64,000 nt of DNA from Parvibaculaceae bacterium (GTDB taxonomy: Bacteria > Pseudomonadota > Alphaproteobacteria > Parvibaculales > Parvibaculaceae), in the NCBI GenBank assembly GCA_019636015.1, contig JAHBYJ010000002.1, positions 62,001 to 126,000 on the forward strand. Direction: 5' to 3'. Position 1 is the stretch's first letter; each line of letters starts with the position of its first letter. The notes beneath the pieces are model-generated. The model did no database searches and was not told the DNA's origin. It saw only the letters and a list, made by a program, of their open reading frames with translations. The position numbers were made by a program, and so were the translations under genes. Shown in pieces: positions 47,435 to 49,622 of the stretch.

Positions 47435-48475
47435 GTGTTCAACAAGGTTGTGTCGATCGCGGCGAAGAACGGAATGCCCAAGCGGACGCTGGGCGCCCTC
47501 GCCATGGCAGTTGCGCTCACGGGTTGCGTCAGCGCGAATGCGGGCTCAGACGGGCGTTACACCGCGCCCATCGGCAACGCCCCGGTCGTCACCAATGAAA
47601 CCCCCTACTCCAATGCGCTTCGCTGTCTTGCGCGCCATGTCCCCGCCAGCACGACGGCCACGCGCATCGCGGTCGGCAATATCCGCGACTACACCGGCAA
47701 GGCGGAAGCGGACGGCACCGGCATGAAGCTCACCCAGGGCGCCTCGCTCATGGCCATGTCCGCTCTCGGCAAGGCCGGCGTGCCGCTCGTCGAGCGTTAC
47801 GATACCTCCATCACCGAACTCGAGCTGAAATACACCAACAACAAGCTCATCGGCGACGGCGCGGAAGACGACTACCGCAAGATCTATGCGGGCGAAATCC
47901 GCGGCTCCGACTATTACCTCGTCGGCGGCATCACCGAACTCAACTTCAACATCCGCTCGGGCGGCCTCAATGCGGGCTTTGCCGAAGGCGGCGACATGGG
48001 CGCGGCGGCCAATGCATCGGCTTCCACCTATGTCATGAACATCGGCCTCGACCTGCGCCTGGTGAACAGCCGCACGCTCGAAGTGGTGGACTACGTTTCC
48101 TACCAGAAGCAGATCGTCGGCCGCGAAATCCGCGCCGGTGTGTTCGATTTCTTCGGCGGCAACCTCTTCTCCATCGGCGCGGGCACCAGCGCGCAGGAGC
48201 CGATCCAGCTCGCCGTCCGCTCGGTCATCGAACGCGCCGTGCTCAAGATGCTGGTGCCGCTCTATGGCGCAAACCAGGCCGACTGCTCGCGCTTCAAGGA
48301 CCCGATGGGCGAGATCGACTACCGTCAGGCCAATCCCGGCGCCAAGGCGAAGCCCGCCCAGCGCGTCGCAGAAGCGCCGGCCGAGACGCCCGCCCGCAAG
48401 GCCGAGCGCGAGCCCTACGCCTACTACTCCGAACCCGTCTTCGAGACCGGCGGGCTGCGCGGCGGCACCTACTAA
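47435..48475 (+). CDS. CsgG/HfaB-like lipoprotein
   Basis: 346 residues from GTG 47435, which follows AGGAGG. A lipobox VALTGC puts the acylated Cys at residue 31. The mature protein has the CsgG fold: AVGNIRDYTGKAEADGTGMKLTQGASLMAMSALGKAGVPLVERYDTS and later SRTLEVVDYVSYQKQIVGREI and AVRSVIERAVLKML. CsgG forms the outer-membrane pore for curli; HfaB is its holdfast-anchor relative. No csgE/F genes are adjacent. Expected at the outer membrane, under sigma-54 control. Confidence 0.85.
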   Translation: MFNKVVSIAAKNGMPKRTLGALAMAVALTGCVSANAGSDGRYTAPIGNAPVVTNETPYSNALRCLARHVPASTTATRIAVGNIRDYTGKAEADGTGMKLTQGASLMAMSALGKAGVPLVERYDTSITELELKYTNNKLIGDGAEDDYRKIYAGEIRGSDYYLVGGITELNFNIRSGGLNAGFAEGGDMGAAANASASTYVMNIGLDLRLVNSRTLEVVDYVSYQKQIVGREIRAGVFDFFGGNLFSIGAGTSAQEPIQLAVRSVIERAVLKMLVPLYGANQADCSRFKDPMGEIDYRQANPGAKAKPAQRVAEAPAETPARKAEREPYAYYSEPVFETGGLRGGTY

Positions 48476-48615
48476 GCACCATCCTTCCAGAGAATTACCG
48501 GCGATACCGGAGACAGAAATGACAAAACGTATCGCCGGTTCACACCCTCATTGCGTCCAGGCGGGTCGGCCTCCAGCCGGACCATGAGAGCCGAGGCGGA
48601 GCTTGTCCGCCGATC

Positions 48616-48653
48616 CCTGACCGGATTTCACAAGATTCCTTTGTCCGGTCAGG
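48616..48653. other. Long inverted repeat downstream of the CsgG-like gene
   Basis: CCTGACCGGA (48616-48625) pairs perfectly with TCCGGTCAGG (48644-48653) around an 18-base loop. Together with the next terminator it forms a double-hairpin end of transcript. Confidence 0.55.
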
Positions 48654-48663
48654 AATACCAACT

Positions 48664-48692
48664 GGGGAGGGCTTCGCGCCCTCCCCTTTTTT
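48664..48692 (+). terminator. Intrinsic terminator, CsgG-like transcript
   Basis: GGGGAGGGC-TTCGC-GCCCTCCCC followed by six Ts (48687-48692). The T run abuts the convergent gdx stop. Confidence 0.8.
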
Positions 48693-49008
48693 ATCCATCC
48701 ACGAATTTCAGCATGGCAACGCCCGCGACGATGGTCGCAATGGCGGCGAGCCTCGCCGGCGCCATGCTCTCGCCGAGAACCGTAACGCCGATGATCGCAG
48801 CGCCCGCCACGCCTATCCCGGTCCACACGGCGTAAGCGGTGCCGAGCGGCAATTCGCGCATCGCCTGCACAAGAAACCAGACCGCAACCAGCATCGCCGC
48901 GATGTTCACCGCGACGATGAGGGGCTTCGTGAAGCCGTCGCTCGCCTTGAGCGTGAACGCCCAGACGATTTCCGCGCCGCTGGCAATGAGAAGATAGATC
49001 CAGGCCAT
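48691..49008 (-). CDS. gdx: SMR guanidinium exporter, Gdx (SugE) type
   Basis: 105 residues, four membrane helices. MAWIYLLIASGAEIVWAFTLKASDGFTKP places the essential Glu at residue 13 as in Gdx, the branch of small multidrug resistance transporters now known to export guanidinium by proton exchange as antiparallel dimers. GWxLK-like A-F-T-L-K and GTAYAVWTGIGVAGA are family features. An AGGAG ribosome site precedes the ATG at 49008. The guanidine-II riboswitch upstream strongly supports the assignment. Confidence 0.93.
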   Translation of the reverse strand: MAWIYLLIASGAEIVWAFTLKASDGFTKPLIVAVNIAAMLVAVWFLVQAMRELPLGTAYAVWTGIGVAGAAIIGVTVLGESMAPARLAAIATIVAGVAMLKFVDG

Positions 49009-49028
49009 CTGCCTCTCCTGTCGAAGAA

Positions 49029-49085
49029 GCGAGGCCGTCCTCGCGATCGGGATAGTGGCGGAATTTCGCCACAGGGCCGTCCCTG
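49029..49085 (-). promoter_or_regulatory. Guanidine-II (mini-ykkC) riboswitch
   Basis: Read on the minus strand, hairpin P1 is CAGGG-ACGG-CCCTG (49085-49072) and hairpin P2 is GCGAGG-ACGG-CCTCGC (49044-49029). Two GC-rich hairpins with ACGR loops are the hallmark of this riboswitch; guanidine binds the paired loops. The linker forms an extra small hairpin TGGCG-AAATTC-CGCCA. P2 ends 10 bases before the AGGAG of gdx, consistent with control of translation start. Confidence 0.9.
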
Positions 49086-49140: not shown

Positions 49141-49165
49141 ATATTGGCAGTGAAAATGCCAATAT
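49141..49165. promoter_or_regulatory. Perfect inverted repeat between gdx and the DUF2147 gene
   Basis: ATATTGGCA-gtgaaaa-TGCCAATAT, 9-bp arms with a 7-base spacer. It ends 6 bases before the GGGAGG ribosome site of the DUF2147 gene, so it may be an operator or a leader hairpin. Confidence 0.5.
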
Positions 49166-49181
49166 ATTTCGGGAGGATGGA

Positions 49182-49622
49182 ATGACACTCGACAGACTGA
49201 TGAATTTCATCGGGGCGGCAGTCCTCGCCTCTGCTTTCGCTAGCGCCGCCTTGGCGGACGCTTCCTCGCCCGTCGGCAAGTGGCGCACTTTCGACCCCGA
49301 CACCGGCGTGCCCAAGACGGTCGTCGAAATCACCGAAACCGGTGGCACCCTCACGGGTACCATTGTCGAACTGCTGGATGACGGCGAAACCACCTGCTCG
49401 AAATGCGATGGCGCGCGAAAGAACCAGCCGCTGGTCGGCATGGTCATCCTCTGGGATTTGACGCCGAAAGGCAGCGGCTGGGCCGGTGGCACGATCCTCC
49501 GCCCTGCCAACGGCAAGACCGCCAATGCAAGCATCGAACTCACCGATGGTGGCTCGAAACTCGCCGTCACCGGTTCGCGCGGCATCGGCAGCCGCACGCA
49601 AACCTGGGAACGGGTGGAATAG
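49182..49622 (+). CDS. DUF2147 periplasmic protein
   Basis: 146 residues. Signal peptide 1-25 (SAALADA), mature DUF2147 domain: VGKWRTFDPDTGVPKTVVEITETGGTLTGTIVELL, then two Cys in TCSKCDGARKNQPLVGMVILW and the family's closing RTQTWERV. Lipocalin-like barrel of unknown function. The TCSKC pair could bind metal or form a disulfide. GGGAGG precedes the ATG. Confidence 0.85.
   Translation: MTLDRLMNFIGAAVLASAFASAALADASSPVGKWRTFDPDTGVPKTVVEITETGGTLTGTIVELLDDGETTCSKCDGARKNQPLVGMVILWDLTPKGSGWAGGTILRPANGKTANASIELTDGGSKLAVTGSRGIGSRTQTWERVE

Follow-up and report, generated by a model that had tools for sequence, protein, structure and literature searches.

A predicted guanidine-II riboswitch with a recurrent linker hairpin upstream of a Gdx-type exporter gene in Parvibaculum

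Two short hairpins with ACGG loops lie upstream of an SMR gene on the minus strand of a 64,000-nucleotide stretch of a Parvibaculum genome (hereafter the window), just as the original prediction had claimed. The locus raises the question of whether these hairpins constitute a guanidine-II (mini-ykkC) riboswitch, what kind of exporter the gene encodes, and how the one would control the other. Riboswitches of this class are translational ON switches built from kissing ACGR hairpins (PMC5486947, PMC12186494, PMC9094411). The explanation favored here, and held with high confidence, is that a guanidine-II riboswitch switches on translation of a Gdx guanidinium/H+ exporter. The locus is an ordinary, well-understood module with modest structural variation; its features are compiled in Table 1.

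Table 1. Features of the exporter gene and its leader, in window coordinates
Feature	Position	Strand	Basis
Weak sigma-70-like promoter candidate GTGTCA-16-TATATT	49161-49188	minus	consensus scan, 9/12; not evidence of function
P1 hairpin, 5-bp core CAGGG-ACGG-CCCTG	49072-49085	minus	sequence; RF01068 alignment; kept in 14 orthologous leaders
Linker hairpin TGGCG-AAATTC-CGCCA, directly after P1	49056-49071	minus	present with changed sequence in 12/15 leaders; shuffle test
Unpaired 11-nt spacer, linker hairpin to P2	49045-49055	minus	sequence
P2 hairpin GCGAGG-ACGG-CCTCGC	49029-49044	minus	sequence; RF01068 alignment; kept in orthologous leaders
Predicted competing helix, GGCCTC/GCTTCTTC (49036-49023) with GGAGAGGC (49018-49011) and start-codon region	49003-49036	minus	minimum-energy fold; shuffle test
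Shine-Dalgarno AGGAGAGG	49012-49019	minus	sequence; conserved in close relatives
gdx (sugE-like), SMR guanidinium exporter (predicted), 105 aa	48691-49008, ATG at 49008	minus	PF00893; SugE model; tree; invariant residues

Both hairpins carry GG/CC closing pairs next to the ACGG loop, and P1 can be extended by G-U pairs to 49088/49069, the extension being weak. Between the 5-bp stems, the P1-P2 linker measures 28 nt. The second hairpin is indeed close to the ribosome site, but its distance to the Shine-Dalgarno AGGAGAGG is 9 nt rather than the 10 bases originally counted; 20 nt separate the end of P2 from the ATG. Two GC-rich ACGG hairpins with such closing pairs, located near the ribosome site and before a guanidinium exporter, are the traits that the leader shares with the guanidine-II family of Rfam (RF01068). 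The covariance search suggested along with the prediction returned a full-length match to this family (49088-49030, minus strand; model positions 1-48 of 48; E 0.0023, from a scan of 221 bases with the full set of Rfam families), but at 25.1 bits it falls under the gathering score of 32 bits, which is a curation threshold and not an anatomical one. The low score probably stems from the long linker with an 11-base insertion. A scan of the whole window at gathering thresholds listed no match, and whole-genome scans with RF01068 miss the site, which reflects an effect of filter and threshold and not absence. Further low-scoring Rfam families in the leader, among them Corona_pk3 and Ms_AS-5, were put down to chance.

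A score under the cut-off would also fit hairpins that resemble the motif by chance or represent a decayed, non-binding relic, and lone GGACGRCC sites are common in GC-rich DNA: the window contains 8, at the chance level of 7.9. Paired copies spaced 10-40 nt apart, however, occur once in the window whereas 0.03 are expected from shuffles. A protein search retrieved orthologous exporters from other Parvibaculum genomes, and all 14 full-length orthologues have both hairpins upstream, in the same distance class as in the window. Among these 15 leaders (the window and 14 others, all from the single genus Parvibaculum), loops and stems are retained while linker and flanks vary. A loss of the ACGR loops in close relatives, named beforehand as a refutation, was not seen; the loops are kept throughout, with one exception reading ACGT in P1 of G002. 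RF01068 matches appear at the aptamer position in most orthologous leaders, with G003 (38.0 bits) and G007 (36.5 bits) exceeding the cut-off, and G002, G021, G011, G004, G009, G015, G024, G013, and G023 scoring 25-32 bits. Chance resemblance or decay is accordingly regarded as extremely unlikely. Because the orthologous leaders share this architecture, the guanidine-II identity can be considered settled, for which the sub-threshold score alone would have been insufficient. The full-length alignment, the two orthologous leaders over the cut-off, the loops kept in 15 leaders, and the position all support the assignment of the window leader as a guanidine-II (mini-ykkC) riboswitch predicted to bind guanidine, as originally proposed. 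A similar arrangement is found at gdx of E. coli (sugE, b4148), where a guanidine-II leader precedes an SMR gene annotated as a guanidinium exporter whose product lies on the same side of the tree as the window protein. An SMR gene follows the riboswitch at 16 of 29 guanidine-II loci in the class sample and at 19 of 29 in the phylum sample.

The exporter itself belongs to the SMR family (PF00893, 86.0 bits; cut-off 23.7). Among NCBIfam models, the SugE model ranks first with 96.9 bits (next best, 65.6), a score below the cut-off of 126 bits of this model, which was made for SugE equivalogs. The closest solved chains are likewise SMR proteins, led by 6wk5, which we take to be Gdx-Clo, with 75.7 bits versus 40.6 for EmrE. 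In a maximum-likelihood tree that includes EmrE, MdtI, and Gdx of E. coli, drawn from the annotated K-12 genome, the exporter falls on the Gdx side together with E. coli Gdx (support 98/93), apart from the EmrE/Qac and MdtI subtypes; besides EmrE and MdtI, the other side contains three sequences that are EmrE-like or otherwise not Gdx. Key residues of the Gdx subtype are the central Glu13, Trp16 and Trp62 in the binding site, and Tyr59 as a switch, and E13, W16, Y59, and W62 are invariant in the 15 Parvibaculum sequences. The tyrosine switch described for SMR proteins, the glutamate equivalent to E13, and the SMR fold are common to the window exporter, EmrE/Qac, and MdtI (PMC9574504). In contrast, EmrE has E-V-I-G-T where the window exporter and Gdx have E-(I/V)-V-W-A, W16 taking the position of EmrE G17. 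Profile ranking, solved structures, and the phylogenetic placement that had been called for thus agree with the Gdx-type, Glu13-bearing SMR exporter of the original prediction, and support its assignment to the Gdx subtype as a predicted guanidinium transporter. No paper describing a switch-controlled guanidinium exporter in Parvibaculum was found in a literature search.

A conserved stretch lies next to the exporter gene, between it and an open reading frame ending at 48475 on the plus strand. This stretch (48500-48690, plus strand) is conserved in 18 of 27 genomes of the genus, including some that yielded no gdx. Its end is formed by a strong plus-strand terminator with a T run. An inverted repeat, ACCGGCGATAC/GTATCGCCGGT, surrounds the possible start site of a 22-codon open reading frame that is not retained in all relatives. 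No Rfam family matched it in the whole-window scan at gathering thresholds, and it may represent either a conserved 3′ end or an RNA that is not translated.

The original prediction also described an exporter-only module, and this description holds for the 64-kb window, in which no gene of the guanidine carboxylase pathway was found, as well as for the genome assembly to which it belongs (2.88 Mb, 84% complete), in which a search revealed no guanidine carboxylase operon. The best TIGR02712 matches in this genome turned out to be biotin-carboxylase domains (1-440 of 1201) and not urea/guanidine carboxylase, amidase matches do not reach the cut-off for allophanate hydrolase, and a single DUF1989-like gene scores far below its own. 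UAAP1-type genes often sit in guanidine/urea carboxylase operons, and some other Parvibaculum have guanidine-II leaders before such a gene (TIGR03425, 270 bits in the two tested). Restriction to the exporter is therefore a trait of this genome as assembled and not of the genus. The Parvibaculum loci with guanidine-II before UAAP1-type (TIGR03425-like) genes are L029, L030, L032, L035, L039, L041, L047, L048, and L049, and another genus of the family contributes L042 and L043; a hairpin is present in the long linkers of L048 and L049 and in the 24-nt linkers of L042 and L043.

Guanidine-II leaders over the Rfam cut-off were also encountered directly before PACE-family efflux genes, namely at L033:1501-1986 (G030), L034:1501-2002 (G061), L156, L158, and L165; they come from two further genera of the Parvibaculum family and from three further families of the class. 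The PACE assignment follows from NF033664 in L033 and L034 and from phmmer similarity in L156, L158, and L165. The association suggests that guanidinium, or a cation related to it, is exported by some members of the PACE family; a literature search found no paper linking PACE transporters with guanidine. At nine guanidine-II loci of the phylum and class samples (L187, L188, L189, L200, L202, L205, L206, L150, and L151), a quick search detected no SMR, UAAP1, or PACE gene directly downstream.

How the aptamer would act on gdx is indicated by a competing helix in the minimum-energy fold, which covers the Shine-Dalgarno region and the start codon and is mutually exclusive with P2. In the main clade, the region between the P2 loop and codon 3 folds more stably than its dinucleotide shuffles (p ~0.03). 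G015 has a helix over its start codon (p 0.006) and G002 one over its ribosome site (p 0.001), both formed by very different sequences; in G003, the stability of this region is not significant against shuffles (p 0.32). Combined over four clusters, the tests yield p 4.7e-5. Such a second helix over ribosome site and start codon suggests translational ON control. In the absence of guanidinium, the Shine-Dalgarno and the start codon would be paired with the 3′ arm of P2 and the adjoining downstream bases, keeping translation low. Binding of guanidinium to both ACGG loops, a step established for the family, would lead to the kissing contact and lock P1 and P2. The 3′ arm of a locked P2 would be unavailable to the blocking helix, the ribosome site would open, and Gdx would be made and would export guanidinium. 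The best candidate for an anti-Shine-Dalgarno in the window is the 3′ arm of P2 with its flank, whereas a published proposal for guanidine-II places it in the linker (PMC9094411). The window also differs from E. coli gdx in the stability of the stretch after P2, which amounts to -16.9 kcal/mol compared with a weak -3.2 kcal/mol.

When P1 and P2 are forced in ViennaRNA, the ribosome site is still mostly paired; folding does not reproduce the release step, which would depend on effects absent from this model. The persistent pairing could be taken to mean that the same aptamer controls transcription or RNA stability and not ribosome access, all the more as guanidine-I and guanidine-IV riboswitches act on termination (PMC12186494, PMC7736828). 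However, the minus strand has no terminator-like hairpin with a T run in the interval from P2 to the start codon, the 20 nt from P2 to the ATG are a short distance, and the ribosome site or the start codon lies under helices in several of the sequences. Control at the level of transcription or stability consequently appears improbable, and translational control of gdx is the preferred reading.

The linker harbors a further small hairpin, whose presence had been reported correctly but which had been set aside as not needed for the motif, whereas it recurs in Parvibaculum gdx leaders. A clear linker hairpin is found in 12 of the 15 leaders, always right after P1, and is a clade-level pattern of one genus. 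Its arms differ by subclade (GGCGG/CCGCC, GAAGG/CCTTC, GAAAGG/CCTTTC, GAGGC/GCCTC, GTGGCGGAGC/GCTCCGTCAT, and CGGCCG/CGGCCG); it is weak at most in G007, and the short linkers of G002 and G003 contain none of note. Guanidine-II linkers range from 7 to 40 nt (PMC7544219). The 28-nt linker of the window lies inside this range and carries a hairpin, yet it exceeds the linkers of all class and phylum matches outside the family except one, while that of E. coli gdx has 14 nt by inspection and is devoid of a hairpin. The unpaired remainder totals 8-15 nt in hairpin-bearing leaders, which is near the 14-nt linker of G. violaceus that, according to Huang et al., must span 49 Å across the kissing stems (PMC5486947). 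We infer that excess linker is absorbed by the hairpin, which would leave a short unpaired stretch to bridge the two stacked stems.

The linker hairpin might be functionless and merely the way in which long GC-rich linkers fold, a view for which the chances are a little short of even. Since the helix is not in the same register in every subclade of the MAFFT alignment, shuffle tests took the place of column-wise covariation; the differing registers, which preclude a covariation count, are compatible with absence of function, as are the lack of the hairpin in G002 and G003, its weakness in G007, and the modest p values of single sequences (0.03 in the window). Combined over seven clusters that are not fully independent, however, the tests reach p 2.6e-5 for dinucleotide shuffles and p 1.2e-4 for mononucleotide shuffles, compared with p 0.65 (mononucleotide) for 39 further guanidine-II linkers, the majority of them belonging to other lineages. 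The seven-cluster test comprises 14 leaders, G003 being left out owing to a P1-core mismatch for the parser, and counts cluster G despite its weak hairpin. The constant position after P1 and the joint exchange of both arms among subclades (GGCG/CGCC, GAAGG/CCTTC, GAAAGG/CCTTTC, GGCCG/CGGCC) likewise argue against a mere folding tendency. A more far-reaching proposal, which can be put forward only tentatively, is that a functional third helix, stacked on P1, determines how long the linker effectively is for kissing and, together with the anti-start helix 3′ of P2, defines a structural guanidine-II subtype that is under-scored by the Rfam model.

The spacing between P1 and P2 that permits the kissing contact is still discussed in structural papers (PMC7544219, PMC5486947), and the linker hairpin, if functional, would provide a natural test of the hairpin spacing that this contact tolerates. 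Several true guanidine-II switches with long linkers escape the standard Rfam threshold, and the locus described here adds to Parvibaculum an annotated exporter predicted to transport guanidinium under switch control.
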